NCBI RefSeq assembly: GCF_014279775.1
Contig: NZ_CP047961.1
Location: 124,001 to 188,000 of the forward strand
Reading direction: 5' to 3'
Source of the DNA: Synechococcus sp. PROS-9-1
GTDB lineage: Bacteria; Cyanobacteriota; Cyanobacteriia; PCC-6307; Cyanobiaceae
DNA length: 64,000 bases
Shown one piece after another: positions 10,759 to 27,689 of this stretch (positions are counted from its first letter, which is position 1; each line of letters opens with the position of its first letter). The notes beneath the pieces are model-generated. The model did not search any database. It saw only the letters and a program-made list of their open reading frames with translations, and was not told the origin of the DNA. Both the position numbers and the translations under genes were made by a program.

Positions 10759-12099
10759 ATGACTGAACATCCCCTCCAGGTTCAGGGTCCGAGCGTTTTA
10801 TTCCGCTACCTCTGGGGTGGGCAGCTGATTTCCAACCTCGGAACACAAACGAGTTTGTATGGAATTGGCCTGTGGCTGTTCTCCCAGTCGGGAGATTTGC
10901 TGGATTTCGGACTGGTCGCGGTTGTGGTGCAGCTGGCCCGCTTGCTTGCTCTTCCGTTGTTAATCCAGTACCTAGTCAACTGGCCACCAGGTCGACTGAT
11001 GCTGGTTTGCCACACCTCAGGCGCTTTGTGTACAGCGCTACTCGCTCTGTTGCTCTTGGGTCGATCGGCTGTCACGCTCCCTCCCCTCGCGTGGATTCTT
11101 GCGGTGCAGGGAGTAGCGGCTGTTGGAGAAGGCATTTTGGTGGTGCGGCTATCCAGCTTGATCCCGTTGCTGATTGCGGAAGAAGAGCGACTGCAACGGG
11201 CCAATGGCCTGTTCGCCACTGTGGATGGGCTTGTGATCACCGTTGCACCTTTCCTTGGCTCTTGGCTGGTGGCGGTTTGGGGTTTGGCAGGAGTATTGGC
11301 GCTGGATGGCATCACTTTTGTGTTGGCGCTGCTAGCCGTTGTGATTGCGCCTTGGCAGAGGCAGATCCAACACTTGCAGCAAGCGGTCGTTTCAGAGCGA
11401 ACACCGTGGGCGCCTAGAAGCACCATTCGGCGTGGCATGCAGCTTTGGCAGCGTTCGTGGTCGGCTCGCTCCGCTCTTCTCCTGACGGGGATAGCGGCAT
11501 TCGTTTATGCCGGTTTGGAGGTGTTGTTTCCGGCCTGGGTGTCCTTGGCCTATCCCCCGGAGCGGATGGGGGCGGTGTTGTTGGTTGGTGCGTGTGGTTA
11601 CTTGATGGGGTTTGCTGCTTGGCGCTGGAGGCTGGGTCGTTGTTGGCGCTCAGCCTTGTTGGTGGCGCTGTTGATTCAAGCCTTAATTTTGATGGGCTCC
11701 GGTTTGCAGGCGTTTGCTGATCGCGATCGAGTCTGGATGGGGGCTGTGCTGGTGTTCAGCTGCGGTTTGCCAGTGGTGATGGCAGCGCTTCATCAGGCCT
11801 GGGTGGAACTCGCACCTCGCGAGGCTTTGCCCCGTTATTTCGCGCTTCGCTATGGCTGCGAGTGGAGTACTCGTTTGGTGGCGTTTTTGGCGGTTCCTTT
11901 GTTGATTGATCGCTTGCTACGTCCAGCGATGAGCTGGTCGATTTGGCCTTTCTGGTTGATGGATGCTCTTGGTAAAGGGCCAGGACGGGAGATGGCCATC
12001 GCGATGGGGGGGTTGGGCTGGTTGATCGTGATAGCAATTTGGATCAGAAGTTACTTGTTAAGAGATCGACTTAGGTCGACTTTGGCCATGAGATCCTGA
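10759..12099 (+). CDS. MFS transporter
   Basis: A 446-residue integral membrane protein with roughly ten to twelve hydrophobic segments, resembling the enterobactin-exporter-like branch (MFS_3) of the major facilitator superfamily. The N-terminus FRYLWGGQLISNLGTQTS matches the start of that branch. It opens a run of same-direction genes, with the next glycosyltransferase only 4 bases on and then the polyketide synthase. This suggests it exports or flips the product of that locus. Substrate is inferred only. The 276-base upstream region is the most likely place for the cluster promoter. Confidence 0.85.
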   Translation: MTEHPLQVQGPSVLFRYLWGGQLISNLGTQTSLYGIGLWLFSQSGDLLDFGLVAVVVQLARLLALPLLIQYLVNWPPGRLMLVCHTSGALCTALLALLLLGRSAVTLPPLAWILAVQGVAAVGEGILVVRLSSLIPLLIAEEERLQRANGLFATVDGLVITVAPFLGSWLVAVWGLAGVLALDGITFVLALLAVVIAPWQRQIQHLQQAVVSERTPWAPRSTIRRGMQLWQRSWSARSALLLTGIAAFVYAGLEVLFPAWVSLAYPPERMGAVLLVGACGYLMGFAAWRWRLGRCWRSALLVALLIQALILMGSGLQAFADRDRVWMGAVLVFSCGLPVVMAALHQAWVELAPREALPRYFALRYGCEWSTRLVAFLAVPLLIDRLLRPAMSWSIWPFWLMDALGKGPGREMAIAMGGLGWLIVIAIWIRSYLLRDRLRSTLAMRS

Positions 12100-12103
12100 G
12101 TCA

Positions 12104-13228
12104 ATGAGGGTTTTGATTTTCACCTCTAGTGGTGGTACAGCTCACGATGCTGCGGCTTATGCCCTCGAGGCCTGGCTGCGCCGCTGGGATCCAAATGGAG
12201 AAGTTTTGGTGGAACATATTCTCGAAAAGGCAAGTTGGTTCACCCGCGGCGGTGTTGCTCTTTACAACTGGATTCAACGCCATGGCCCCTGGATGCATCA
12301 GATCTATTGGCGTTTGGTGGAGTTTGAGGATGTGACCAAGCCTGGAACTTTGCTCGCGGGTCGTTCCTATGTGATTCGGATTTTGCGGCGTTTCCAGCCT
12401 GATCTGCTGATATCCACCCATCCCCATATCAATCGAGGTCATTTTGATTTGGCTCGGCGTGTTTGTCCCGAGATGCGTTGCATCACCTGTTGCACAGAGC
12501 TTGATGGTGGTTTCGGATTCAGTCGTAATTGGTTTTCAAAGAGGGCTGAGGCTTTCTGGACGTTGACCCCTGAGGTGAGCTCTTATGCGCGCCGGCAGGG
12601 CTATCGAACGGTCCCAGCTCCGGCCTTCGGCCCCTTGTTTGATCCAGCCTTTGATGAGGAGCTCTTCCGGCCCGAGAAAGCTGCTACAGCTGATCAGTTG
12701 CCGTTATTGGTGCTGGGGGCCGGTGCCAACGGTGCAAACAACCACGTGCGCTTGCTTGAGATGTTGCTGCCCCTGGCTGGCAGGGTGCGTGTGGTTGCGT
12801 TGTGCGGTCGCCGTCAGGCTGCTTTGCATCAGCTGCGGCAGTGGGCTGAGCAGCACCCTCAGTTGTCCTTCAAGCCATTGGGTTTTCAAGGGCCTGCTGA
12901 GATGGCAAGCCTTTACAAGCAATCCTGGGCGATGGTGGCGAGACCAGGAGCGCGCACGGCCACGGAAGCCTTGGCAGCAGGCTGTGTGCTGATTTTCAAC
13001 GGCTTCGGTACGACCATGCCACAAGAGCTCTTGGCCCGTCGTTACTTCAAGGCGCGTCAGATTGATTGCTGCATTCGCAAGCCTCAGGATTTATTGAATT
13101 TGTGTCGCGGCTGGTTGGATCAACCAGAGCACTATCAGAAACTCAAAGAGCGGGTTTCGAATCATCGGCTTATTGCTGATCAGGAGGCGATTCGTTCGCT
13201 CCTGTTTGATGGATATTCGTTTGACTGA
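12104..13228 (+). CDS. MGDG synthase-like family 28 glycosyltransferase
   Basis: A 374-residue GT-B glycosyltransferase. The N-terminal half carries the MGDG-synthase-type acceptor domain (SSGGTAHDAAA near residue 8, ISTHPHINRGH near 106). The C-terminal half has the GT28 donor domain, with VLGAGANGANNH and the sugar-nucleotide block RPGARTATEALAAG. This family adds galactose or glucose to diacylglycerol or other lipid alcohols at the cytoplasmic face of a membrane. Its stop overlaps the start of the polyketide synthase by one base, implying translational coupling. A role in glycosylating the alcohol made by the PKS is inferred; housekeeping cyanobacterial MGDG synthesis uses a different enzyme (MgdA). 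Confidence 0.85.
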   Translation: MRVLIFTSSGGTAHDAAAYALEAWLRRWDPNGEVLVEHILEKASWFTRGGVALYNWIQRHGPWMHQIYWRLVEFEDVTKPGTLLAGRSYVIRILRRFQPDLLISTHPHINRGHFDLARRVCPEMRCITCCTELDGGFGFSRNWFSKRAEAFWTLTPEVSSYARRQGYRTVPAPAFGPLFDPAFDEELFRPEKAATADQLPLLVLGAGANGANNHVRLLEMLLPLAGRVRVVALCGRRQAALHQLRQWAEQHPQLSFKPLGFQGPAEMASLYKQSWAMVARPGARTATEALAAGCVLIFNGFGTTMPQELLARRYFKARQIDCCIRKPQDLLNLCRGWLDQPEHYQKLKERVSNHRLIADQEAIRSLLFDGYSFD

Positions 13229-16200
13229 TGGCATTGGATCCTTCAGGCACAATCAATAAACAGGAGCCCATTGCCGTTTTAGGTATGGGCTGCCGTTTGC
13301 CTGGTGGGGTCGAGAGCCCTGAACAGTTTTGGCAACTGCTGGCTGAAGGAAGTGAGGCGATCGGCGAGATTCCCTCAGATCGCTGGGATCTTCAGCGTCA
13401 CCATGATCCCGATCCGCGCAGGCCGTTGCACCAGCATGTCCGCCGAGCTGGATTGGTGGACGGGATCGACCAGTTCGATCCAGCCTTGTTTGGCATAAGC
13501 GGCAGGGAAGCCCAGTGCATGGACCCTCAGCAACGCCTGTTGCTTGAAGTGTGCTGGAGGGCGATGGAGGCGGGTGCCCAGCCCCTGGAGCAGTTGCGTG
13601 GACGCTCAGTGGGAGTGTTCATGGGCATTTCCAGCGCTGATTACAGCGCATTGCTCTGGGCTTCGGAAAATCAATACCTCACACCTGATAACGAACCCTT
13701 CATCCTCACCGGCAACACCGGTTGCATTGCTGCCAACAGAATTTCCTACGCCTTTGATCTCAAAGGGCCCAGCTTCACCGTGGATACGGCTTGTTCCTCG
13801 TCTCTGGTGGCTTTGCACTTGGCTTGCGAGAGCTTGAGGCGCGGTGAGTCAGAGCTTGCTCTTGCTGGAGGTGTGCAGGCCTTAATCCATCCCGGCATAC
13901 AGATGAGCTTCTGTAAGGCGGGGTTGCTGTCGCCATCAGGGCACTGCCGCAGCTTTGATGCTGAGGCGGATGGCTATGTGCGTTCCGAAGGCGCCGGTGC
14001 TGTACTCCTTAAGCCGTTGCGGGCTGCCCTGCGCGACGGTGATCCGATTGAAGCGGTGATCCGTGGCACCGCGGTGAATTCCGATGGCCGCAGTCAAGGC
14101 TTGGCTGCACCCAACAAAAAAGCTCAGATCGCGTGTGTGCAAGCCGCCTATGCCTCTGCTGGGCTGTCTCCTTCGGCAGCGCAATTCGTAGAAGCCCATG
14201 GCACAGGGACTCGCCAGGGGGATCCGATTGAACTCAGAGCCCTTGGCTCGGTGCTTGGGCAGGGGCGGCCAAGCACCGAGCCCTGCTTGCTTGGCTCGGT
14301 GAAAACCAATGTGGGGCATTCGGAAACGGCTGCAGGCATTACGGGTTTCATCAAAGCCGTGTTGTCTCTCAGGGAGCGAATGGTCCCTGAGAGCCTGCAT
14401 TATTCGCAGCCCAATCCCAGCGTGGATTTGCCTGGGCTTGGATTGAAGGTTTCAACGACGCTGCAGCCTTTTCCCAAGCCTGAGCAGGAGCTGGTGGTCA
14501 GTGTCAGCTCTTTTGGATTCGGTGGTACTAATTCTCACGCTGTGCTTAGTAGTGCTCCTCTTGAGCTTTCTCAGCCCTCTTCTACATCGTTACTAGGGCA
14601 TTCATTTCACCTGCTCTGGTTGAGCGCACGCAACGAGGAAGCACTTGACGTGCTTCGCGCGCAAATAGCGGATTGGCTCGAGGCTCAAGCAGCGTTCAGT
14701 TTGGAGGATCTTTGCGCCAGCATCCATGTGGGACGCTCCCAATTCCCCCATGCGCTGGCGTTGATTGCGAGTAGTGGTGAGGACCTGGTACGCCAGCTGC
14801 GAGGGCAAGAGCCTGCCGCTTGGACCGGTGTTGTTCCCTCGCGTGGATCTGAGGTTTTGCCAGAAACGTTGAAAGATCTGCAACAACAGACATTGTCTGA
14901 GGGCCCCGTGGGGGTTGAGCAGCTCCAGAAGCTTGTTCAAGCCTTGGCTCAAGGAGCCCAGATGGATTGGCGCGAATGGCATCAAGGTGCCTCCTGGCGT
15001 CAGCTCCGGCCGCCAGGTCATCCATTTCTGCGCTCACGCTTTTGGTGGACGCCACGGGACCAGGATCTGGAACAAGGCAAAGCCAGCCTTTGGCTTGATC
15101 ACATCGGTGTTGGCAGCAGTGTCACAACGGAACAGCCAGGGATGGCTTTTCAGAAGTTGGACCTTCCAGGAGCGTTAGAGCACTGGCAGACCGTGTTGGA
15201 TCCAGCTAACGCTCGCGACTTGCAAGATCATGCGCTTTGCGGATATCCCCTGTTCGCGGCAGCGGGCTATCTTGCCCTTGTCTTGGATTGGTTGAGCGAC
15301 CAACAACAGCCACTTGAGTGTGCTGATCTCAATCTCGATCGTCCGCTGTGGCTCAACGCTGGATCAGTGCAGCTACAGGCTGTGCGCGACGGTGATGACT
15401 TCAGCTTCCATGCCCGCACTCCCCAGGCTGAAGACGCCGGCAGCTGGCAGCTTCATGGGCAGCTCCTATTGAGCAGAGCTGCGGAACAAGCCATTCAGCC
15501 CTTGCAGGCTTTGGAGTTTGACCATGGTGCTGACCTTGATGTCGCCGATTTTTATAGCTCCTTAAAGAATTTTGGGCTGGATTACGGCAGCTGCTATCGG
15601 CCGCTTGCTGCTTTGCAAGCCAACGCCACGGGCGCCGAAGCACTGCTGCATCGTCCTGATGCTGCACCTGATCGCAGCCTGATCGATGGATGTTTTCAAC
15701 TGGTGGCTGCGGTTCTTGCGCAAACGCACTCCGATGGCCAATTGCTACTCCCTGTGGGAGTGGAACAGATGCAGATGTTGCGCTGGCCTTTGCCCGACCA
15801 GCTGCGATGCCGTTTACAGCTTCGTCCAGAAGATTTGCACAACGCAGCTGAGAGCAGTCGCGCGCATGTGACCGCTGACTTGGACCTTCTTGATCAATCT
15901 GGGGTTTTGCTCGGTGGGATCCGTGGTTTGCAGTTGAGGCGTTTGACGCGAACTCTGCTGGAGTTAATGCTCCCTGAGGACTCCTCTCGACCTGCCGGGG
16001 AACTGCTGGAGACCATTTGGCAACCTCTTGCGGCGCATGCACTGAGCGATTGGAGCCCAGGAGCTGCCGAGCCAATCACCCTGATCGCGTTGGGGGCATT
16101 GCCAGATGCCGTCTGGGAGTGGTGCCAGCAGCAGGCGATCGTGCCTTTGGAACTGGATGCTCAGGAGGATCCAAAATCCGTAACTTCAGCGCTGGTGCAA

Positions 16201-19200
16201 CAGCTGCAGGCGCTTCCCCTCAGCCAGCCGCGTCAAGTGTTGTTGTGGATGCCGGCTTTCGCCACACCTGCTGCTGGGTCAGTCCAGGCGGCAGTGCGCT
16301 CCCTGGCCCAGGACTGTTCTGCTTGGCGTTGCAGCACGATTACAGCCTCAGCCACTGCGCTGGCTGGAGGTCTCTCATCAGCGCAGTGGCAACGTCTCTT
16401 GGCTGCCACCGCCGGTGATGCTGAGCTCCGCTGGTGCGGTTCCGATTGCATTGAAACCCGCTGTTTTCAGCCGATTGATCAAGATCGGTTTCGCATGCTG
16501 TCCGATGGAAGTGGTCGACTTGAAGGGCTGGTCAAGGCGCCTTTGCCACTAGCGCGCCTTCAGCCAGGAGAGTTGGAGTTGGCGGTGGAGGCCACGGGCC
16601 TGAACTTTCGCGATGTCCTGAATGCTTTGGGGCTTCTGCACAGCCACAACCAATCCCTTGGGCTTAGGGCCAATGCTCAATTGCCATTCGGCGGGGAGGC
16701 CGTGGGGCGTGTGGTCGCTGTTGGCCCTGGCGTGGATTCCTCATTGGTGGGCCAGCGGATGCTTGCGGCTCTCACCCTGGGAAGCCTGGCAAGCCATGTG
16801 AGTTGTAGGGCAGCCCTCTGTGTGCGTTGGCCAGAAGAGTTGGATCCTGTGGTAGGGGCAAGCCTTTCAACGGCCTATCTCACGGCAGAGCATGGCCTGG
16901 AGCAGTTGGCGCAGCTTCAGGCTGGAGAAACAGTTTTGATTCATGCAGCTGCCGGTGGAGTAGGGCAGGCGGCTGTGCAGGTGGCCTTGCGATGCGGTGC
17001 TCGCATCCTGGCCACCGCCAGTGCAGCCAAACAGGCTGGATTGTTGCAGCAAGGTGTGGAGGTGGTCTTTGATTCCCGCTCCACTGCTTTCGCTGATCAG
17101 GTTCTCAAGCACACCGAAGGCCGTGGTGTTGATGTTGTCCTGAATAGCCTTAAAGGTGAGTGGGTGGATGCCAGCTTTCAGGCGCTCGCTTCAGGCGGAC
17201 GCTTTGTAGAGCTTGGCAAGCTGGAAATCTGGAGCGATCAGCAGGTACGCGAGAAACGGCCTGATGTCGGCTATTTCCGCTTTGATCTGCTGGAAGTGGC
17301 AGCGCGCGATCCACACCCCTTAAGGCAGCGATTGCTGCGGTTGGTGGCGGCGTCTCAAGACAAAACTTTGCCTGCTTTGCCGGTATCAGCCTTTGCTTTG
17401 GATCAGTGCAAGGACGCCTTCCGACGGATGGCGCAGGGAAAGCATGTGGGCAAGTTGGTGATCACCCTGCCAAGCCAAGCCCCGCCTTGTGCCATCCGTA
17501 TGGACGGCACTTATCTGGTGGTGGGTGCTTTTGGAGGGATTGGCCAACTTCTGCAGTCTTGGTTGGTGGATCGGGGTGCGCGCTCGTTGTTGTTGCTGGG
17601 GAGAAGTGTGCCCGTACCAGGGACAGAAACGGCCGAGTGTTTGGACAGCCTCCGCTCTCAAGGTGTGCAGGTTGAGGCGCTCCGATGGGACGATCTCCCT
17701 CAAGCACTCGCTGGATTACCTCAGGACCTACCACTGCGCGGTGTCTTTCATGCTGCTGGAGCCCTGCAAGATCAGCGCGTCGGTGAGATTGAACTCACCA
17801 GTATTAATAAGGTGTTTGAGGCGAAGTTGGGTCCCCAGCAGCAGCTTGACAAGCTGCAAAGGCTGCAGCCAGCTGCGTTTCAAAACCTCGATTTTCAGGT
17901 GATGTTCTCGTCAATCGCCGCGGCACTGGGTTCGCCGGGCCAGTTTGTCTATGGCGCTGCCAATGGGGCTGTTGAATCCACCTGCATCAACGCGGACTCT
18001 GATGGCGCAGTTCAGCTGGCGATTCAGTGGGGGCCTTGGGCTGGTGCTGGCATGGCTGAAGGGTTGGAGCGGCGCTTTGAGTCCGTAGGACTGCATCTCT
18101 TGGCGGAAGACGAAGCGTTGTCGGCTCTGGAGTCATTGCTGCAGCGAGGCCGTAGCGGAGTGGTGACCGTGATGGCGGCCGATTGGCCGCGGCTCGTCAG
18201 TCAGGCCTTGCCCCGACAGGCGGCCTGGTTCCGATCCCTGATTAATGAAGTAGGGGGCCGCTCAGAAGCCCAGGTGCGCGCTCAGTTGGAGGCCTTGTCA
18301 GTGGACCAGCGCAGGCCATGGATGTTGTCGACGCTCCAAGACATCCTGGCTGGAGTGATGGAAGAACCGGAAGCTCAGCTCGATTCCCGTACCAGCCTTT
18401 TTGATTTAGGGCTCGATTCGTTGATGGCAGCCGAGTTTGCTGCCGAAGTCCAGCAGGCGTTGGGATGGCGCCTAGATCTGGCTGCCCTTAGCGACGCCCC
18501 TTGCTTGGATGATCTGGCGAGCATGGCTCTCGAGCGATTGTTGCCAGACGGATCTGCAGCGGCACGGGAGGGATTGGACCTTGATCAAGAGGCGCAGCTA
18601 GAAGCCAGTTGGTCAGTGCCGGAGAGCCCACCCGTTGAGGCGCCTGGAGAACGAGTTCTGCTCACTGGCGCGAGTGGCTTCCTAGGCGCCTATCTCCTGG
18701 CAGGGCAGCTGGAGCGTTGGCCGGAGCTGCGGGTGCGTTGTCTCGTGCGAGCTTCCTCCTTGCATCAAGGATCGGAAAAGTTGGAGCGGAATCTTCGTCG
18801 TTACGGTCTGTGGAATCCGGACTGGTCGGAGCGGTTGGAGGTGGTGCTTGGAGACCTTTCCCAGCCGAAGCTGGGACTCGACCCCGATCAATTTGCGGCT
18901 CTCGGCCAGGGGGTGGGAGGCATTCTTCACAACGGTGCCCAGCTCAGCCAGATGGCCAGCTATGCCCAACTCGCTGCTGCCAATGTTGGCGGTACTCGAG
19001 AGCTGCTCCACCTAGCAACGGCCGCTTCGCCACTCCGCTTTGAGTTGATTTCAAGCGTTGCTGTCTTTGAGGCTGATGCTTATCGCGATCAGGTGATCGC
19101 TGAAGATGATGCGCTGGCCGACTGGCAGGGCATCCAACTCGGTTATTCCCAAACCAAATGGGTCACGGATCGCATGGTGGCGCGAGCAGGGGAGGCCGGA

Positions 19201-19752
19201 CTTCCCGTCACGGTGTATCGCCCACCGCTGATTGCCGGCCCCTCCAACGGACGTTTCTGGCATGAGGGCGATCTTTTGCAGCGCTTGTTGCAGGGAAGTT
19301 TGGCCCTAGGGGCATCCCCGGATCTGGCCTGGGAGCTCGATGTGGTTCCTGTGGATTACGTCGCAGATGCAGTGTCTGCGCTGGCCTGGTGTGAACCTGC
19401 CAAGGGGCGTTGTTTTCACTTGCAGCACCCTGAGCCGTTGATGCTCACCACGCTTTTGAGCCAGATCACCGATGCTCAAGGTGGTTGGAGGATCTTGCCG
19501 ATGCAGGAATGGATCGAGGCGATCGAAGCAAGCTTGGCTAATCCTCTGCAGCCCCTGCTGCCTTTCCTGCGGCAACGCTGGGGAGAGGACGGCCTAACGT
19601 ATCCGGAGCGCAACTGCAAGGGACAGCGGGCTCGACCTGGTTGTAGTTACACCACTCAGCTGTTGGCTGAACAGGGGGTCCGCTGCCCTGATTGGGACCA
19701 ATTAATTAGTCCTTGGGCATCGGCGCTGCTTCAGCAGAAGTCTTCGGTTTGA
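13228..19752 (+). CDS. iterative-type polyketide synthase KS-DH-ER-KR-ACP-TR lacking an AT domain
   Basis: A 2174-residue type I PKS. KS spans about 14-440, with Cys189 (DTACSSS), His324 (EAHGTGT) and His364 (VGHSETA) all present. Residues about 455-610 hold the flanking linkers of an acyltransferase (LWLSARNEEALD, RPPGHPFLRSRFWW), but no AT core such as GHSxG. DH spans about 630-890, with His668 and Asp820 (LIDGCFQ). A truncated structural KR is followed by ER, about 1090-1415, with HAAAGGVGQAA. Catalytic KR, about 1425-1635, has Ser1561/1562, Tyr1575 and YGAAN. ACP has Ser1731 in LGLDSLMA. The terminal thioester reductase, about 1805-2174, has LLTGASGFLGAYLL, Tyr1973 and Lys1977. One fully reducing module with reductive release predicts a saturated or partly reduced long-chain aldehyde or alcohol. 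Malonyl loading must come from a separate AT, perhaps FabD, which is not in the window. Confidence 0.93.
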   Translation: MALDPSGTINKQEPIAVLGMGCRLPGGVESPEQFWQLLAEGSEAIGEIPSDRWDLQRHHDPDPRRPLHQHVRRAGLVDGIDQFDPALFGISGREAQCMDPQQRLLLEVCWRAMEAGAQPLEQLRGRSVGVFMGISSADYSALLWASENQYLTPDNEPFILTGNTGCIAANRISYAFDLKGPSFTVDTACSSSLVALHLACESLRRGESELALAGGVQALIHPGIQMSFCKAGLLSPSGHCRSFDAEADGYVRSEGAGAVLLKPLRAALRDGDPIEAVIRGTAVNSDGRSQGLAAPNKKAQIACVQAAYASAGLSPSAAQFVEAHGTGTRQGDPIELRALGSVLGQGRPSTEPCLLGSVKTNVGHSETAAGITGFIKAVLSLRERMVPESLHYSQPNPSVDLPGLGLKVSTTLQPFPKPEQELVVSVSSFGFGGTNSHAVLSSAPLELSQPSSTSLLGHSFHLLWLSARNEEALDVLRAQIADWLEAQAAFSLEDLCASIHVGRSQFPHALALIASSGEDLVRQLRGQEPAAWTGVVPSRGSEVLPETLKDLQQQTLSEGPVGVEQLQKLVQALAQGAQMDWREWHQGASWRQLRPPGHPFLRSRFWWTPRDQDLEQGKASLWLDHIGVGSSVTTEQPGMAFQKLDLPGALEHWQTVLDPANARDLQDHALCGYPLFAAAGYLALVLDWLSDQQQPLECADLNLDRPLWLNAGSVQLQAVRDGDDFSFHARTPQAEDAGSWQLHGQLLLSRAAEQAIQPLQALEFDHGADLDVADFYSSLKNFGLDYGSCYRPLAALQANATGAEALLHRPDAAPDRSLIDGCFQLVAAVLAQTHSDGQLLLPVGVEQMQMLRWPLPDQLRCRLQLRPEDLHNAAESSRAHVTADLDLLDQSGVLLGGIRGLQLRRLTRTLLELMLPEDSSRPAGELLETIWQPLAAHALSDWSPGAAEPITLIALGALPDAVWEWCQQQAIVPLELDAQEDPKSVTSALVQQLQALPLSQPRQVLLWMPAFATPAAGSVQAAVRSLAQDCSAWRCSTITASATALAGGLSSAQWQRLLAATAGDAELRWCGSDCIETRCFQPIDQDRFRMLSDGSGRLEGLVKAPLPLARLQPGELELAVEATGLNFRDVLNALGLLHSHNQSLGLRANAQLPFGGEAVGRVVAVGPGVDSSLVGQRMLAALTLGSLASHVSCRAALCVRWPEELDPVVGASLSTAYLTAEHGLEQLAQLQAGETVLIHAAAGGVGQAAVQVALRCGARILATASAAKQAGLLQQGVEVVFDSRSTAFADQVLKHTEGRGVDVVLNSLKGEWVDASFQALASGGRFVELGKLEIWSDQQVREKRPDVGYFRFDLLEVAARDPHPLRQRLLRLVAASQDKTLPALPVSAFALDQCKDAFRRMAQGKHVGKLVITLPSQAPPCAIRMDGTYLVVGAFGGIGQLLQSWLVDRGARSLLLLGRSVPVPGTETAECLDSLRSQGVQVEALRWDDLPQALAGLPQDLPLRGVFHAAGALQDQRVGEIELTSINKVFEAKLGPQQQLDKLQRLQPAAFQNLDFQVMFSSIAAALGSPGQFVYGAANGAVESTCINADSDGAVQLAIQWGPWAGAGMAEGLERRFESVGLHLLAEDEALSALESLLQRGRSGVVTVMAADWPRLVSQALPRQAAWFRSLINEVGGRSEAQVRAQLEALSVDQRRPWMLSTLQDILAGVMEEPEAQLDSRTSLFDLGLDSLMAAEFAAEVQQALGWRLDLAALSDAPCLDDLASMALERLLPDGSAAAREGLDLDQEAQLEASWSVPESPPVEAPGERVLLTGASGFLGAYLLAGQLERWPELRVRCLVRASSLHQGSEKLERNLRRYGLWNPDWSERLEVVLGDLSQPKLGLDPDQFAALGQGVGGILHNGAQLSQMASYAQLAAANVGGTRELLHLATAASPLRFELISSVAVFEADAYRDQVIAEDDALADWQGIQLGYSQTKWVTDRMVARAGEAGLPVTVYRPPLIAGPSNGRFWHEGDLLQRLLQGSLALGASPDLAWELDVVPVDYVADAVSALAWCEPAKGRCFHLQHPEPLMLTTLLSQITDAQGGWRILPMQEWIEAIEASLANPLQPLLPFLRQRWGEDGLTYPERNCKGQRARPGCSYTTQLLAEQGVRCPDWDQLISPWASALLQQKSSV

Positions 19753-20930
19753 GCTTGCCTGCACCAGCGCTGCTCCTTGGGATGCTCTTTCTGCAGATTG
19801 TGCTGGTAGGGCTGTTTGCTTATCAACTGCGCAAGTTGCGCAGTTGCAGCACACCGTTTGCAGCGGAGCCCGAGGAGGGATGGTTGCCCTTGGAGGTGGT
19901 GCTGTGCCTGAGGGGGGCAGATAGTTGCTTGCCGCGACTGCTGCGATCTCTGGCCGGTCAGACCTACCCAGGCCCTTGGCGGCTTCAGGTGGTGGTGGAC
20001 AGTGATGCTGATCCGGCGTGGCCGTTACTCCAGCCTTGGCTGAATCGCTCAGATACTGCTTGGTCCGAGTTGCACTGCCGGACCCTTCAGCAACGTCCGA
20101 GCCAGGGCTCGCTCAAATGTGCAGCACTACGTCAGGCTTTTTCTGATCTTCACTCCGAGAGTGCTCTGGTGGTGCTGCTCGATGCTGATATTCGCTTCGC
20201 TGAAGATGGCCTGGAACGTTGTGCCCGAGCTTGCTTGAAGCCAGGGATCGGGGCGATTTCTGGCAACCGCTGGTTTGCTCCTCTCTCTCCAGGATTATCG
20301 GCATTGAATTTGAGCAGTTGGACGCGCGCGGTGTGGAATGCCGGCGCCGTGGTGTTGATGACCCTGTGGAAGATCCCTTGGGGCGGCACTCTTTGCGTTC
20401 GCCGCTCGGTGGTGGAAGCCGGCGATTGGCTTGAACTGCTTCGCCGCGGATTGTGCGAAGACACCGGCCTGTTGGGTCCGTTGCGAAGGCTGGGTTTGGA
20501 CTATCGGTTTGAACCGAATTTGATCATGGTGGATCCTGATCCTGCCCAGCCCTTGCTCCCGCTAAGCCGCTGGATCACCCGTCAGCTGCTCACCGCTCGA
20601 TTGCATCATCCGGCTTGGGGCTTGGTGGCACTGCATGGTGTTAGCAGTGCTGCACTGCTCTTGCTTGCGCTGTTGCAGGGAGATTGGGCCGCGGCGTTGA
20701 TCTATGAGCTGGGTTGTGTGGGACTGCTTTGCTGGATTGAACGATTGATGCAGCCTCAAGGAAGCCCCCATTGGCTGGGCTGGGCTGTGGGCCTTGTGCC
20801 GGGGCAGCTCGTGGATGGGGCGGCAACCTTGGCGGCTCTGCTTGTGCGCCTGATCTCTTGGCGAGGTGTTGATTACCTGGTCCGCTTCCACCCCTCTCGG
20901 GTCACGATCCTGCGAGATAGAGGGATTTAG
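19749..20930 (+). CDS. family 2 glycosyltransferase, ceramide glucosyltransferase-like
   Basis: A membrane-bound processive-type GT2 of about 393 residues. An N-terminal hydrophobic anchor (ALLLGMLFLQIVLVGLFAYQ) is followed by a GT-A domain with VVVDSDAD, VVLLDADIRF, CEDTGL and RQLLTARL. This spacing is the D,D,D,(Q/R)xxRW-like pattern of ceramide glucosyltransferase and HpnI proteins. Several C-terminal hydrophobic segments follow. I favour the TTG at 19749, which overlaps the PKS stop as TTGA, a pattern also seen at 25983 in this window. Alternatives are TTG 19713 and ATG 19782. It would transfer a sugar to a lipid acceptor, probably the PKS product (inferred). Confidence 0.82.
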   Translation: MSLPAPALLLGMLFLQIVLVGLFAYQLRKLRSCSTPFAAEPEEGWLPLEVVLCLRGADSCLPRLLRSLAGQTYPGPWRLQVVVDSDADPAWPLLQPWLNRSDTAWSELHCRTLQQRPSQGSLKCAALRQAFSDLHSESALVVLLDADIRFAEDGLERCARACLKPGIGAISGNRWFAPLSPGLSALNLSSWTRAVWNAGAVVLMTLWKIPWGGTLCVRRSVVEAGDWLELLRRGLCEDTGLLGPLRRLGLDYRFEPNLIMVDPDPAQPLLPLSRWITRQLLTARLHHPAWGLVALHGVSSAALLLLALLQGDWAAALIYELGCVGLLCWIERLMQPQGSPHWLGWAVGLVPGQLVDGAATLAALLVRLISWRGVDYLVRFHPSRVTILRDRGI

Positions 20931-21499
20931 GGCTTCTCCATCAGCGCACTCAGCCGCAGCATCGAATCCCGCAAGCTGGTGCGTGTCAGCTGGGCAAACA
21001 GAGGTTGCATCAGGCCTGGCAATTCAGGAACCAAGGTGATGGTGTGGCGCAGACGCGTCCCCGTTTGTGTTGGCGTTAACGACCAGCTTCCGCTGAGGGC
21101 ACTGATCAAATCACCCTTGATCATGCGGAAGTGAATGGCTGTCTTGGGCGTTTCCGTTACAGCAAGTTCAGCGCTGATTGTTAACCCGAAGGTGTAGGGA
21201 GCCTGATAAGCCTGGCGTAGCCGCAGGCTGTTCCCCTGCCGGCTGAGGAGTTGCACCTTGGAGATGTCAGGCATTGCTTCCCCTATGGCCACGTAATCGG
21301 TGAGCACCTCCCAGGCGCGCTGGGGCGGCACTGGCACGGTCATTGATGCAGTGCGGGTGTTCCCCTGCTGCTCCACCAGCACGTTCAGCTTGGTTTGCGC
21401 TTGTGCCGCAGGTAAAGCTGCTGCGCTGATGATCGCCAACGGCATGAGTAAGGCAGAACCTTTAAGGGCCCAGGGAGAAAGGCGAGAATGAGAGAACAT
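20927..21499 (-). CDS. exported SRPBCC (START/cyclase-like) protein
   Basis: About 190 residues. The N-terminus has basic residues, a hydrophobic core (ALLMPLAIISAAALPAAQA) and an AxA-type signal peptidase site. The mature part is a single SRPBCC domain that starts with the typical VPVPPQRAWEVLTDY and IGEAMPDISKVQLL blocks. Such domains form a hydrophobic pocket for lipids or polyketides; the exact role is unknown. It is the only minus-strand gene in the cluster. It overlaps its neighbours at both ends: 4 bases with the GT2 stop, and its ATG shares a CATG with the divergent hydrolase start. A later in-frame ATG at 21445 would lack the basic region. Confidence 0.8.
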   Translation of the reverse strand: MFSHSRLSPWALKGSALLMPLAIISAAALPAAQAQTKLNVLVEQQGNTRTASMTVPVPPQRAWEVLTDYVAIGEAMPDISKVQLLSRQGNSLRLRQAYQAPYTFGLTISAELAVTETPKTAIHFRMIKGDLISALSGSWSLTPTQTGTRLRHTITLVPELPGLMQPLFAQLTRTSLRDSMLRLSALMEKP

Positions 21500-22592
21500 G
21501 GCCGCGCTACTGGTGCACTCCAATCCATTCTGCCGGCGCCGCACCTATTTCATCAGCGGTTTTGATCCAAGAGGTGTGGCTCACTACCAGGGCTTGTTTA
21601 AGCGGGCCTTGAAACAACGGGGTTGGCGTTTAGGGCGGCGTTTACCAGGTGAGCAAATCACGCTTTGGCCTTTGGAGAAGCAAGGCACTGAGCTCGCATT
21701 CCTGCATTGGGATGATGTGGCACGGGCCCACTGGCCCAAGCATCCCTTTTCACTGCTGGGTCAACTGCTCCCGTATGGATGGGACTACCTGTTTAGAGGG
21801 CGCTTATGGGCTGCTGCCAGGTTGTGTAGAGGGGTTGCCTTATGCGGCTTGTATCCCCTAGTTGTGCTCGCGATCGTGTTTTTGTTGGCGGCTGCAGCCG
21901 CTTGGCTTGGCTTGCAGGTAGGGCCGCCCATAGGGCCCATCATTGCGACATTTTTAGCAGCGATGGTGGTTTGGCGAGGCTGGCTATTGGCTGACCAGCT
22001 CGGGGTTGTCTGGCTGAGTCGCTCGATCTTGTTCACGTATCGGCTCGGCGAAGCTCGCGATCAAAGCCTGCGTTTGCGGGTTCAGATGTTGGCGCAATCC
22101 CTTTTGGATCTGGAACGAAACTCGCCTGCAAACGAAATCCTGATTGTGGGTCACAGCTCTGGTTCATTCGTTTTGGCAATGTTGGCGGCGGAGCTACGCC
22201 GACGGCCTGAGGCTGAAACCGTTTTGCAAAAAATGAGCTTGCTTAGCCTTGGACAAAATCTTGCCAATCTGGCCTTGTATCCACGTGCTGATGCCTTCCG
22301 TCAAGATCTGAGGGAGCTGGCTAAGCCCCCTCGTTTGCCCTGGCTTGATGTGACATCCGCAGATGATCTGCTGTGCTTTGCCGGTGTGAATCCCTACGAG
22401 GTCTGCGGAATGCCGTTGCCAGAGCAGGGCAACTATCCACGCCAGCAACTGTTGGATCTAAGAAAAACGAGGGGTTTGAGACGTCGCCGCCAGTGGCTCA
22501 GTGTGCTGTTCGAGCTTCATTTTGTTTACCTCTGCGATCCGTCAAGCGGAATTGATCTCTGTGGCTTGATCGCTGGGGAGGGTCACTGTTAA
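21498..22592 (+). CDS. membrane-associated alpha/beta hydrolase
   Basis: A 364-residue protein with the serine-hydrolase nucleophile elbow GHSSGS (Ser220) preceded by EILIVGH. One or two long hydrophobic segments lie near residues 115-165 (LYPLVVLAIVFLLAAAAAW, GPIIATFLAAMVVW), so the active domain is membrane-tethered. A lipase, esterase or thioesterase role on the cluster product is possible but not shown. The start codon overlaps that of the divergent SRPBCC gene in a CATG, and the stop overlaps the P450 start by one base, so hydrolase and P450 are probably co-translated. Confidence 0.75.
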   Translation: MAALLVHSNPFCRRRTYFISGFDPRGVAHYQGLFKRALKQRGWRLGRRLPGEQITLWPLEKQGTELAFLHWDDVARAHWPKHPFSLLGQLLPYGWDYLFRGRLWAAARLCRGVALCGLYPLVVLAIVFLLAAAAAWLGLQVGPPIGPIIATFLAAMVVWRGWLLADQLGVVWLSRSILFTYRLGEARDQSLRLRVQMLAQSLLDLERNSPANEILIVGHSSGSFVLAMLAAELRRRPEAETVLQKMSLLSLGQNLANLALYPRADAFRQDLRELAKPPRLPWLDVTSADDLLCFAGVNPYEVCGMPLPEQGNYPRQQLLDLRKTRGLRRRRQWLSVLFELHFVYLCDPSSGIDLCGLIAGEGHC

Positions 22593-23983
22593 TGGCGATC
22601 ACACCTCCCTGGCCGAAACCGCTGCCTTACACCGCAAACCTGTTTCGGCGCCTTGCCCGTGGTTGGACCAGCTGGTTCGGTTTGCTCAATGAATGGGACT
22701 TCCGCATCGCCTTGGGGGAACTCAACCTCCTGGGACTGCGCGTTTTTTTGGTGAACGACCGAGCCCTCGTGCGGCGTGTGTTGATTGAGGAGGTAGAGAA
22801 TTTCCCAAAGCATCCCTACACCCTCTGGATTCTCGAGCCGCTCATCGGTCGAGCCATTTTCTCGGTGAACGGTGAGGAATGGGCCCGTCAACGGCGTCTC
22901 ATTGATCAAGCCTTTCAGGCAGCCCAGTTGGAGCGGGTCTATCCAGCGATGGCTGCTGCCACCGATGCGATGTTGGAGCGGTTGGACCAGGAGTTGGCGC
23001 AACAGCCAGATGCCATGCGGGGGGCTGTGGTCGACATCGAAGCAGCGATGACTTGGGTGACAGCGGATGTAATCGTGCGCACGATTCTGAGCCGGCCTTT
23101 ACAGGCAGATGAAGCAAGAGAGGTGGTGGAGGCCTTTGGGCGCTATCAACGCCGGGCGGCTCGTGCTTTGGTGATGCGTTTCTTGCATCTCCCTCGGCGC
23201 TGGGTGCAGCGTTCTCTACAGCGTGATGCGGGTGTGATTCGCCGTTGGATTAAAGGGGTGATTGAGGAGCGGTTGGCGGCGCCGGACGCAGGTGGAGACG
23301 ATTTGCTCGCTTATCTCATGGCAGCGCATGATCCAGTGAGCGGCACCAGTTTCAGCGCGGAGGAGCTGGTTGATCAGGTTTGTTTTCTGTTCTTGGCCGG
23401 GCATGAAACCTCTGCTAGCGCCTTGAGCAGTGCCTGTTGGTTATTGGCTCTCGACCCTTCTTGCCAGCAGCGGTTTTGGGCTGAAGTGGACGGGGTCGTA
23501 GAAGAGGGCGGCTTGGCTCCGGAGCGCTTGCGAAAGCTTGATTACGGTGCCGCTGTGTTTCAAGAAACCCTGCGCCTCTATCCGCCAGTGAGTTTTTTTA
23601 TTCGCGAAAGGCAAAGCACCGAAACCACGTTGCAGGCGAGTCGTTGCCCTGTGGGTTCATTGCTGACCTTCTCGCCATGGGTGATTCACCGCCATGAGGA
23701 TCACTGGCCGGAGCCCAATCAGTTTCGCCCTGAACGTTTTTTGCTCGATGGCTCCACCCCAGAAGAACGCCGTCTGTCTCGAGAGGCTTGGTTGCCCTAT
23801 GGCTTGGGGCCGCGCAAGTGTCCTGGGGCTGCCTTTGCCCAGCAGGAGGCTTTATTGGTGCTCGCGGAATTGATTGGGGAGTACCAGCTTTTACCTGCAA
23901 ACGAGGACATCGGCCCGGAATGGGTGGGTCGCCTTACGTTGCGTAGCGCCAATGGCGTGCTGTTGCGGCTTGTCCCGCGTTGA
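22592..23983 (+). CDS. cytochrome P450
   Basis: A 463-residue soluble-type P450. The I-helix AGHETS lies near residues 269-274, the K-helix ETLR is followed by YPPVSFFIRE, and the heme loop is PYGLGPRKCPG with the thiolate Cys410. The usual FxxGxRxC begins with Tyr here, a tolerated variation. It probably hydroxylates a fatty chain or polyketide using electrons from ferredoxin. It is coupled to the hydrolase by a one-base TAATG overlap and is the last plus-strand gene of the polyketide locus. It converges on the outer-membrane protein gene with only 17 bases between the stops. Confidence 0.95.
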   Translation: MAITPPWPKPLPYTANLFRRLARGWTSWFGLLNEWDFRIALGELNLLGLRVFLVNDRALVRRVLIEEVENFPKHPYTLWILEPLIGRAIFSVNGEEWARQRRLIDQAFQAAQLERVYPAMAAATDAMLERLDQELAQQPDAMRGAVVDIEAAMTWVTADVIVRTILSRPLQADEAREVVEAFGRYQRRAARALVMRFLHLPRRWVQRSLQRDAGVIRRWIKGVIEERLAAPDAGGDDLLAYLMAAHDPVSGTSFSAEELVDQVCFLFLAGHETSASALSSACWLLALDPSCQQRFWAEVDGVVEEGGLAPERLRKLDYGAAVFQETLRLYPPVSFFIRERQSTETTLQASRCPVGSLLTFSPWVIHRHEDHWPEPNQFRPERFLLDGSTPEERRLSREAWLPYGLGPRKCPGAAFAQQEALLVLAELIGEYQLLPANEDIGPEWVGRLTLRSANGVLLRLVPR

Positions 23984-24000: not shown

Positions 24001-25983
24001 TTAAAAACCCACCAGAACCCTGCCGCCCCAGCGAATTTGCTCGGCACTCAGTAATTGGCCGATATCGAGGATCGAGGCAGCTGTAGTGCCGTAGGCCTCT
24101 AGAGCAATGCTTTCGGTGGTCTGCCAGCGCAGACCAAGCGTGCTGTTGCTCTGAGAAAATTGATTTATCACAAGGTTTCCTTCAGGGATGAGCTGCCAGC
24201 GCGGCGCTAGCTGCACGTTCGCGCTCAGGCCCACACCCCAGAGGTTGCCAACCCCACTCCATGCCACTTTGGGGTTCACATTGAAAGCGAGCCAGGGAGT
24301 GGCTTCCCAGGTGTTGATGGATTCAGTGAACACGTAGCCCTGGCCGCTGCTGCTCTTGGCATCGCTTCTGCCGAGGGTGATGCGGCCACCTCCCCAGAAA
24401 GGAGCGCCGCGCAGAGGACTGAAAGCCACGGCTTTACCACCGATGCGCCAGTTGTAGGCGCCGTCGTTGGCGTAGGTGCGCGCCTGGGGAGTGGTCTGGG
24501 GAACGTTGTTGTAGAGACCACCGCTAAATAAACCCACCTGGAAAATGTTCGACAGCGAGTAGCCCACAAAGCCGTTGCGGTTCCCTCCGTCGTCGCCATT
24601 GCCCCAGGCCTCGATGCCTCCATCGGGTGGAACAAGAGCGGTGTTCACGGTGAGGCCGCCCTTGCTTAAAGATTGTTGCCGTGTGGTGAGGGGCGGTTGG
24701 GGCGTATCGGGTGTGTCTGGAGTGAACACGAAGCTGGCGCTGTAGCCCAGACGGTTGTCGGAAGGTAGGGCGAGCAGCGCTGTGGCTGGTGTGGCGCCGA
24801 AGCCATTGGTGATCATGCCCCGCAGACCAATGCGGGGGTTTAGGTCCCAATTGATTCCGGCTGAAAGGATGGGTACGCGTGAAAATTCAAGATCAGCATT
24901 AAAGCTATTGGTTCCAGCACCCACGGGTTGGGCGATGCTCGCGGTGAGTCCTAACTCGGGGATGGGTTGGAACAGAACACCACCACTGATGAATGGATTG
25001 GTTCCATAAAACGTGCCTGCGCCCCCTTGGCCTGCGCCCTGGCTGGAGGGCAGAACGCTCACCCCTGGAGCAAGGCTGAATTGCAGGTTTTTGGTTGCTT
25101 GCCAGCTCACCGGAAGGCTGATGGAGCCAACAATGTTGCGTGTGAACACCCTGCTGCCGGAGTCATTGAAGATGTTGGGGCTGGCGTTATCTCCCGCGTT
25201 AGAGAAGGAGTCGTCACCACCGCTACCCACTTCCCAGACTTCTAGGGATCCATTCAGAGCCAGTTGCCAGCTGTCTTGATTGAGCAAGCGCCAGCGTGCG
25301 GCTGCGCCGTAGCTTTGCCAGAAGTTGCCGGGCTGCTTCTTGAATCCAGTTAGCGGGGCGTTGAGTGGGTCATCGGCTTGGCTCACAAATGCCGTGAGCT
25401 GCAGGTTATCGATCAGGCCGACGTCGAGATTGATGGCGTAGTTCTGGTTCCCTGTGCCGGTATCACTGCTGAACGGCGAGATGTTCAGGAAGCTGATCCG
25501 CCATTGCTCAGACGGCAGGGTGGCTGCAGTGGGTACGGCGAGTGATAACCGCAGCAGGGGGAGGTAGTCGCTGGCTTTGAGGGGAATGCTGTTCAGTACT
25601 GCCTCCACTTGTTCTGGCGTGAGCTGCTGATCAAAAGGTTCTTTGGAGGCTTCCTTAGGGGGCTCTGCTGATCTCTCGTCGTTTGCAATCACCTCCCAGA
25701 CCAATCGATTCAGCGATGGATTGGTGTGCTCGTTGTCTGGAATCACCTCCCAAACCACTGGATCCATCGATTGTTTGCTCTGCTCACGTTCCGGCACCGC
25801 ATCCCAAATCACAGATGGAGCAGCATCTGCTTCTTTTGCGCTGTTCTGATCCATCAGCAACGGCTCCCAGCGCACCTGGGTGTGGGCCTCTCGTGGCGCC
25901 AGGGCAGTGGTGCTCAGGCACAACAACACACCGCCAGCCATGAGTTTGGACAGGCCGTGAACGATCGCAGGTTGGTTGCTCAA
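24001..25983 (-). CDS. outer-membrane beta-barrel protein with N-terminal Trp repeats
   Basis: About 660 residues; no named family recognised. An N-terminal hydrophobic signal segment (MAGGVLLCLSTTALA) is followed by four short repeats centred on Trp39, Trp60, Trp78 and Trp96 of the form W-(E/D)-x-(I/V/L)-(P/A/L) with acidic residues after. The rest alternates aromatic and small residues, with many Gly/Asn turns, and ends GGRVLVGF with a terminal Phe, as outer-membrane barrels do. The start is TTG at 25983, overlapping the Wzz-like stop as TTGA, so it is third in a wza-wzz-omp operon. A role in polysaccharide passage or anchoring at the outer membrane is inferred from that context. Confidence 0.7.
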   Translation of the reverse strand: MSNQPAIVHGLSKLMAGGVLLCLSTTALAPREAHTQVRWEPLLMDQNSAKEADAAPSVIWDAVPEREQSKQSMDPVVWEVIPDNEHTNPSLNRLVWEVIANDERSAEPPKEASKEPFDQQLTPEQVEAVLNSIPLKASDYLPLLRLSLAVPTAATLPSEQWRISFLNISPFSSDTGTGNQNYAINLDVGLIDNLQLTAFVSQADDPLNAPLTGFKKQPGNFWQSYGAAARWRLLNQDSWQLALNGSLEVWEVGSGGDDSFSNAGDNASPNIFNDSGSRVFTRNIVGSISLPVSWQATKNLQFSLAPGVSVLPSSQGAGQGGAGTFYGTNPFISGGVLFQPIPELGLTASIAQPVGAGTNSFNADLEFSRVPILSAGINWDLNPRIGLRGMITNGFGATPATALLALPSDNRLGYSASFVFTPDTPDTPQPPLTTRQQSLSKGGLTVNTALVPPDGGIEAWGNGDDGGNRNGFVGYSLSNIFQVGLFSGGLYNNVPQTTPQARTYANDGAYNWRIGGKAVAFSPLRGAPFWGGGRITLGRSDAKSSSGQGYVFTESINTWEATPWLAFNVNPKVAWSGVGNLWGVGLSANVQLAPRWQLIPEGNLVINQFSQSNSTLGLRWQTTESIALEAYGTTAASILDIGQLLSAEQIRWGGRVLVGF

Positions 25984-27689
25984 CCCAGCTCCAGATCAGG
26001 ATCAAGCAGCACCCAACCAGCCAGAGGGGTGCCTTGAAGCGCCAATTTCTGTTTGAACTGGGACAGCTGGGTGCGTGTGGCTACGCCTGGGGCAGTGAGC
26101 AGCAGCTGGGTGGCGCAACGGCTGGTTTGGCGCAGGTCGCTGCTCACTAGCAGCTCACGGCTGCCAAGGGCCTGTTGCAGCTCGGAGCGCAAGCGCTGCA
26201 GCTGATCACTGGGAACATTGCCTACGGGAATGAGAGCAATCGGTCCAGGGGCGGGCACGCTTAGGGGGCCGTTGGCCAAGAGATCAGCGGCGTCATGCCA
26301 GCTGTTGGGGGCAAGCGCAGAGAGGTGCTTGAGCAGAGGGCAAGGCAGCAATCCCTTGAGCTCATCACGGCTGAACACCAGCCCGGTGCGGCGATCCACC
26401 ACAAGGGCAGCACCGCTTCCAGCGACCAAGCCGGCCAGCAAACCCAGCGCCATCATCCGCTTTTTGCGGGGGGCCACTGGGTTGTCAAGCAAGGTCGGGG
26501 TAGAGATCAACTCCCATGGCTCTTGTTTGCGGGCTTTTTCAAGTGAAAGTACCTGGCGCTCCGCTTCTAATTTGGTAAGCGTGGCTTCATCACGGGCAGC
26601 TTCGCGTAGAAGTTCCCTGAACTTGATCAACACTCCCTTAGGACGTTCCGCCGCCTTGAGTCTTGCTTGCGCTGCAGTTCGCTGGGCATATAGATAACCA
26701 TATGTTTGGCGTTTAAATACCTCAATCAGCAGGCGGCGTTTCTCTAATACCCTTCTGATCGAGTCATCCTTATCGGTGAATTTGGCGCGTAGGAGGGCGA
26801 GCTCAGTGTCAAGAGCGTCAAGAGTTTGAGGTAATTCCTGAGCAGCAAGCTCGGGGATATTTCTCCCCAAATACATTAAAGTTTCCGGATTATCGTTGAG
26901 TTGATTAAGTTGTATGAGTTGTTCGTTAATGCTTCGGATTTGATTGGCGGCCTGCACTCTGATGGCTTCGATGTTTATTGAATTTTTGATTTCATTATCG
27001 TTAGCTCCTTCGCCCTTTAAAGCTGTGAGGTCTTCATTAATGGCGTATTGCTGAGCCGCCCGGAGTGACTCGGCGCTTTTCGTAGTGAAAAGCTCTATCT
27101 GTTCATCGAGATAGGAAATCGCCTGGGTTAAGCCCTTCGCTCTGTCGCGTCCGGAATAGGCCTGGTAGGTCTTAGAGATGCGATCAATTACCGGAAGAAT
27201 CAAGTCTTCCTGGGTGTCGCGGTAGGCGATCTCGAGCACGGAGGTGCCTTTGGCGAGTTCGATCGTGAGATTTCCCACCCAACTCGAGTAGCGCCACGCG
27301 CTGACGTCCTCACCTGTTTTGGCTTTGCTGGCTTTCACGAAATCGAAAACCGGCTTGAGCACCGAAGGGCTTTCGAGAATTTTGACCTCGGTTTCCAATT
27401 GGCTTTCACCACCGCCAGCTCCGATCAATCCGGCTAAGCCTGGATTGGTTTGAAGCAAGGCAGCCGCACCACTGGAAGGTTGCTCATTGTTTTGCAGCAC
27501 GATCTGAAATTGCCCTTCCCACACTGGTTTGCGAGTGAAGGCATAGAGGGTGGAAAGGACGAGCGCCCATCCCGCAACAGCTCCAATCAGGCGCTTATGG
27601 CGAAGCAGGGCCCCGCCCACTTGGCGCAGATCGATCTCATCGTCTGTTGATGGGTTCTCGATGGGGGAGGGGGTATGGCTGCTCGTCAT
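25980..27689 (-). CDS. Wzz/GumC-like chain-length and export co-polymerase without kinase domain
   Basis: A 569-residue inner-membrane protein of the polysaccharide co-polymerase family. The first membrane segment lies near residues 34-51 (LIGAVAGWALVLSTLYAF), then the Wzz domain and long coiled-coil periplasmic helices. The second membrane segment is near 412-431 (MMALGLLAGLVAGSGAALVV). The cytoplasmic tail has the remains of a P-loop-like fold but no Walker A motif, so it is not an autokinase like Wzc. It controls polymer length and bridges to Wza. Its ATG shares one base with the wza stop and its stop overlaps the next gene. Confidence 0.88.
   Translation of the reverse strand: MTSSHTPSPIENPSTDDEIDLRQVGGALLRHKRLIGAVAGWALVLSTLYAFTRKPVWEGQFQIVLQNNEQPSSGAAALLQTNPGLAGLIGAGGGESQLETEVKILESPSVLKPVFDFVKASKAKTGEDVSAWRYSSWVGNLTIELAKGTSVLEIAYRDTQEDLILPVIDRISKTYQAYSGRDRAKGLTQAISYLDEQIELFTTKSAESLRAAQQYAINEDLTALKGEGANDNEIKNSINIEAIRVQAANQIRSINEQLIQLNQLNDNPETLMYLGRNIPELAAQELPQTLDALDTELALLRAKFTDKDDSIRRVLEKRRLLIEVFKRQTYGYLYAQRTAAQARLKAAERPKGVLIKFRELLREAARDEATLTKLEAERQVLSLEKARKQEPWELISTPTLLDNPVAPRKKRMMALGLLAGLVAGSGAALVVDRRTGLVFSRDELKGLLPCPLLKHLSALAPNSWHDAADLLANGPLSVPAPGPIALIPVGNVPSDQLQRLRSELQQALGSRELLVSSDLRQTSRCATQLLLTAPGVATRTQLSQFKQKLALQGTPLAGWVLLDPDLELG

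Follow-up and report, generated by a model that had tools for sequence, protein, structure and literature searches.

The window, the whole stretch of 64,000 nucleotides that was analyzed, lies in the genome of Synechococcus sp. PROS-9-1, a single contig of 2.27 Mb. The genes are arranged as MFS-GTa-PKS-GTb, then SRPBCC on the opposite strand, HYD-P450, and OMP24-Wzz-Wza, again on the opposite strand (Table 1). All seven ORFs from MFS to P450 that the first-pass annotation had proposed were recovered at their positions. Pfam and NCBIfam back the assigned families of the MFS, the MGDG-synthase-like GT, the PKS with terminal TR, the GT2/GT21 transferase, SRPBCC and P450. The ORF of the proposed membrane hydrolase is present, too, and Pfam gives it no family. 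The close packing described earlier, with overlaps of 1 to 4 bases or short gaps, does not hold between PKS and GTb, which overlap by 40 bases if the TTG of GTb is used; the true start of GTb may lie downstream of this codon.

SRPBCC converges on GTb and diverges from HYD; the cluster is therefore not one operon and comprises at least three transcription units. Its strand is opposite to that of PKS or GTa in the loci possessing it. SRPBCC likely starts at the ATG at 21499, which is followed by a signal-peptide-like stretch. If this ATG and the HYD ATG at 21498 on the plus strand are both used, the two starts overlap in CATG.

Table 1. Features of the cluster and of its right-hand flank, in window positions.
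Feature	Position	Strand	Evidence or remark
MFS exporter, MefA / 2A0121-like	10759..12099	+	PF07690 58 bits; TIGR00900 below cut-off; kept in cluster
GTa, MGDG-synthase / processive diacylglycerol glucosyltransferase-like (GT28)	12104..13228	+	PF06925 27 bits
PKS: KS - KS/AT linker - (AT absent) - DH - ER - KR - ACP - TR	13228..19752	+	Pfam
Lost-AT scar: ~107-residue linker, PKS residues 505-611	14740..15060	+	junction alignment
TR domain, reductive chain release	18655..19728	+	TIGR01746, residues 1810-2167
GTb, HpnI / ceramide-glucosyltransferase-like membrane GT	19713..20930	+	NCBIfam HpnI 40 bits, below cut-off
SRPBCC (START-like), exported, lipid-binding, predicted	20927..21544	-	PF03364/PF10604 ~49 bits
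HYD, membrane-anchored serine hydrolase-like	21498..22592	+	invariant GHSSG, D284/D290, H341; without Pfam family
Cytochrome P450	22592..23983	+	PF00067 206 bits; PDB relatives 7wzl, LUT5/CYP97A
OMP24, exported, probable outer-membrane beta-barrel	24001..25983	-	conserved right-hand neighbour; C-terminal Phe
Wzz-like polysaccharide export protein	25980-27689	-	flank in several loci
Wza-like polysaccharide export protein	27689-28897	-	flank in several loci

The Wzz- and Wza-like genes are a conserved flank, which probably stands outside the lipid pathway. Farther to the right, positions 30000-56000 form a low-GC island (47% vs ~57%) with sugar-nucleotide and polysaccharide genes, among them those for a GDP-mannose dehydratase, an HldE-like protein, a transketolase-like protein and a TPP enzyme.

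Conservation and recombination of the cluster

The PKS was searched in 201 genomes of the family (E<=1e-100), and matches, partly to other PKSs, were found in 36 of them. Among 36 regions that were read, the complete seven-gene set was present in 20 loci besides the window, all of the same genome family. Gene order is as in the window in 17 of these 20 complete loci, and MFS and GTa are swapped in the other 3; the position of MFS varies within genus g1. The homologues are thus not scattered, the idea of the first-pass annotation survives this comparison, and the seven-gene arrangement is not due to chance.

HYD is the most specific marker of the cluster. It was found in 29 of these 201 genomes; a search of 386 genomes across the phylum gave 2, both from the same family as the window. 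Of the family genomes, 27 have both HYD and PKS, 2 only HYD, 9 only PKS and 163 neither (Fisher p ~1.5e-23, a significance overstated by the relatedness of the genomes). The best KS matches outside the family are ~54% identical and belong to ordinary PKSs. A scan of viral contigs with HYD gave no relative, and a scan of named genomes with GTa gave one close relative only. One family genome (G032), which has no type I PKS match in the whole-family search, carries HYD/P450 relatives, KpsC/KpsS-like genes, an ABC-2 exporter and a FabF-like KS in one region (L134, 5600-18402).

Within the genus of the window, the PKS is present in 6 of 31 genomes. Two clusters of this genus, L041 and L042 (the contig of the latter starts inside GTa), are without HYD and P450, which are therefore accessory genes. 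Neither HYD nor OMP24 was found in nine sampled PKS-less genomes of the genus. The conserved block extends past P450 to the convergent OMP24 gene and often to Wzz/Wza genes. OMP24 is also present in PKS-less genomes, sometimes adjoining Wza/Wzz.

Three architectures of the cluster were distinguished. The first has an AT-less single PKS of ~2,120-2,200 aa, and the second an AT-bearing single PKS of ~2,450-2,680 aa in identical gene order. The third (L063-L068) has two PKSs, one KS-AT-DH-ER-KR-ACP and the other KS-KR-ACP-TR, and scans of two examples (L064, L068) found no AT in the latter. Domain logic would predict that a 3-hydroxyl is retained in this two-PKS form, with a 1,3-diol as product.

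Comparison with loci L038 and L041 reveals that the cluster is a recombination mosaic within the genus, with a PKS body like that of one congener and TR and both GTs like those of another. The stretch at ~14.2-18.7 kb of the window (14205-18702) matches genome G208 with 83-89% identity, whereas GTa and the TR and GTb portion match G201, mostly with 74-86%, against 61-78% to G208. For the breakpoint, which is placed at ~18702 near the ACP/TR boundary, the log-likelihood gain is 310, whereas permutations reach 7.8 at most. The left edge of the mosaic is less sharp, and the KS region is mixed.

A PKS without acyltransferase and the probable role of FabD

In the window PKS, Pfam detected KS, the KS-AT linker, DH, ER, KR, ACP and TR, but not the AT domain PF00698. 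The single fully reducing PKS of the first-pass annotation is hence confirmed in its reductive domains, and the absence of AT had been missed. PF00698 was detected in none of the 17 PKSs of the AT-less clade and in all 10 AT-bearing sister PKSs, which occur in syntenic clusters. The stretch between KS and DH measures 104-107 residues in 15 of 16 aligned AT-less PKSs and 75 in L042, compared with 357-419 residues, AT included, in the sister PKSs. The junction alignment displays that AT alone is missing; the KS-AT linker and the post-AT motif PGHPF..R.WW are kept.

All cluster KSs form one clade in the KS tree (support 100/100), and the 17 AT-less KSs form a single clade nested among the AT-bearing ones (100/99, one change), for which one loss of AT is the simplest reading. 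The terminal domain matches TIGR01746 with 257 bits (cut-off 213) and carries Rossmann and YxxxK motifs, as in reductively released type I PKSs. With a module devoid of an AT domain, the protein is also a candidate trans-AT PKS in the mechanistic sense, and it has in common with trans-AT type I PKSs that malonyl is needed in trans. It differs from them in that no dedicated AT gene was found and in that its KS sits among AT-bearing sisters of the same genome family, in a tree built without reference trans-AT KSs; this nesting indicates an AT loss local to the lineage and tends to speak against a place in the trans-AT KS clade.

A dedicated trans-AT gene was sought in ten AT-less genomes and not found. 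Each of them encodes one PF00698 protein, of FabD size and FabD-like, while the three AT-bearing genomes tested encode two each, one inside the PKS. As the sole AT-family protein, FabD is the only candidate of this family to load the PKS, and going by gene content the AT-less PKS is most likely loaded in trans by the FabD of fatty acid synthesis. One PPTase-like ORF is present in the genome.

The catalytic residues of KS (C/H/H), DH (H/D) and KR (K/S/Y/N) are kept in all 17 AT-less PKSs, and those of ACP (S) and TR (Y/K) in all 16 complete ones. The PKS is under purifying selection with dN/dS ~0.14. Both results argue against decay of the PKS.

Proposed glycolipid and competing explanations

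With moderate confidence, we propose that the cluster directs the biosynthesis of an exported glycolipid in picocyanobacteria on an AT-less, FabD-loaded PKS. From the predicted protein families, the product is best read as a long-chain alcohol that is glycosylated and exported. The PKS would elongate an acyl primer in iterative rounds, with malonyl units supplied to its ACP by FabD, the transacylase of the fatty acid synthase, because the PKS is without its own AT. KR, DH and ER would fully reduce the chain, and TR would free it as an aldehyde or alcohol. GTa and then GTb may add sugar, giving a mono- or diglycoside. P450, in strains having it, may hydroxylate the chain, and HYD, where present, may add or remove an acyl or ester group. 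The product would be carried over the inner membrane by MFS, shielded in the periplasm by SRPBCC, and helped into or through the outer membrane by OMP24. We infer the substrate, chain length, sugar and order of steps, as well as the loading by FabD and the roles of SRPBCC, HYD, MFS and OMP24, from computed features of the locus.

The two glycosyltransferases resemble members of known families that act on lipids, which favours a glycolipid. The GTa family profile matches a diacylglycerol glucosyltransferase (9wde, E=2e-22) and MGD1 (4wyi, E=4e-17) in PDB, and the GTb profile matches ceramide glucosyltransferase (E=9e-9). GTa identity is 57-84% across the aligned cluster loci except L068 (49%). 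In HYD, GHSSG, D284/D290 and H341 are invariant, as in serine hydrolases, of which HYD is a putative member; lipase and esterase matches in the PDB profile search were at chance level only. OMP24 has no Pfam match and retrieved nothing in the PDB profile search. Outer-membrane barrels end in Phe, and a C-terminal Phe is found in 17 of 18 OMP24 proteins, so OMP24 is a probable outer-membrane beta-barrel, with predicted topology. Single-sequence structure prediction gave unusable models (pLDDT 47 for HYD and 29 for OMP24). In the yeast clusters of the sophorolipid type, too, a fatty chain is handled by a P450, a pair of glycosyltransferases, an esterase-like hydrolase and a transporter; they are without a PKS, and the likeness lies in the logic only.

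Against the glycolipid reading stand the two same-genus clusters missing P450 and HYD, the shifting position of MFS and the OMP24 genes of PKS-less genomes. Judged by sequence alone, a polysaccharide or another lipid might also be the substrate of the GTs. An unlikely but serious alternative is that the PKS alcohol, once GTa/GTb have added one or two sugars, is not a free glycolipid but the primer or membrane anchor for an exopolysaccharide or a capsule that leaves the cell through Wza/Wzz. It draws on OMP24 and/or Wzz/Wza bordering the cluster in loci of all three architectures, on the sugar-nucleotide/polysaccharide island in the right half of the window, and on G032, where HYD and P450 without a PKS match lie beside capsule genes and the ABC-2 exporter. 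However, OMP24 also occurs without the PKS, and as surface-polysaccharide islands belong to the variable parts of genomes, the proximity may be coincidental. KpsC/KpsS-type genes were found in 0 of 24 PKS-bearing genomes tested, and a general link of the cluster to Kps capsules was rejected.

A secreted bioactive polyketide glycoside, an allelochemical exported by MFS and not a structural lipid, seems improbable. The weak MefA-likeness of MFS, the patchy distribution in the genus and the recombination mosaic would fit such a compound, yet an envelope lipid accords better with the persistence of the cluster in small genomes (1.6-2.0 Mb), the lipid-type GTs, the periplasmic SRPBCC and the outer-membrane-like partner. 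Still less probable, and indeed very unlikely, is that the PKS does not elongate and only reduces and releases a chain from the ordinary fatty acid synthase. The lack of AT in the protein, with FabD alone in the genome, could be read this way, but an idle KS or DH should degenerate over time, whereas their catalytic residues, like those of KR, are invariant in all 17 AT-less proteins and the gene is under purifying selection.

The first-pass annotation had also considered the product related to heterocyst glycolipids. An exported, glycosylated and reductively released lipid is still favoured, now for a conserved cluster, whereas the kinship is reduced to an analogy: reductive release and glycosylation occur together, and hgl islands make long-chain alcohols on a PKS that are freed by reduction, glycosylated and exported, as the window cluster would. 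In the hgl islands the PKS is PfaA-like and consists of several proteins, its KSs are distinct, and HglT and the HgdBC ABC exporter are present; the window cluster has a single AT-less PKS, an MFS exporter and other GTs. Neither an HglE-type PKS nor an ABC exporter was detected among the seven genes by Pfam/NCBIfam. The definition of an hgl island in PMC11804610 requires at least seven HG genes, and these were not seen at the locus; the main text of that paper leaves Synechococcus unmentioned. The KS tree included three hgl reference islands (L124-L126), recognised by a PfaA-like HglE followed by HglC/D-type KS proteins. It separates the cluster KS from the hgl and PfaA-like KSs with a 95/96 split, which is good but not absolute given some long branches and partial hgl KS stretches. 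TIGR02813, the PfaA model that also detects HglE, has no match in the genome at E <= 1e-80. On the split and this result hgl membership was rejected, and homology of the cluster to the hgl island has next to no probability.

An uncharacterised PKS cluster family, CF-20, was described as widespread in marine and freshwater picocyanobacteria, with conserved gene order and content and largely vertical inheritance (Calteau 2014, PMC4247773). Host group and conservation agree with the window cluster, which is probably a CF-20 member. The main-text passages on CF-20 in that paper make no mention of AT loss, GTs or product. The cluster, put forward at first as a candidate for an undescribed system, has thus likely been seen before and left unexplained. 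In the literature outside subscription journals, no description was found of its product, nor of the AT loss, the FabD dependence or the mosaic near a domain boundary.

Meaning for picocyanobacteria

The fuller proposal is more tentative, and as a whole somewhat doubtful: an undescribed exported glycolipid would be made by a PKS tied to the fatty acid pathway through AT loss and FabD, and strains would swap the KS-to-ACP portion against TR and the GTs by recombination. The cluster is a testable candidate for an envelope lipid of picocyanobacteria not yet known. Its AT-bearing, AT-less and two-PKS versions form a natural series within one syntenic cluster for AT loss and FabD dependence, a question usually approached only via distant trans-AT systems. 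Moreover, the breakpoint near the domain boundary suggests a natural route by which the chain building and chain release of a PKS may be exchanged.
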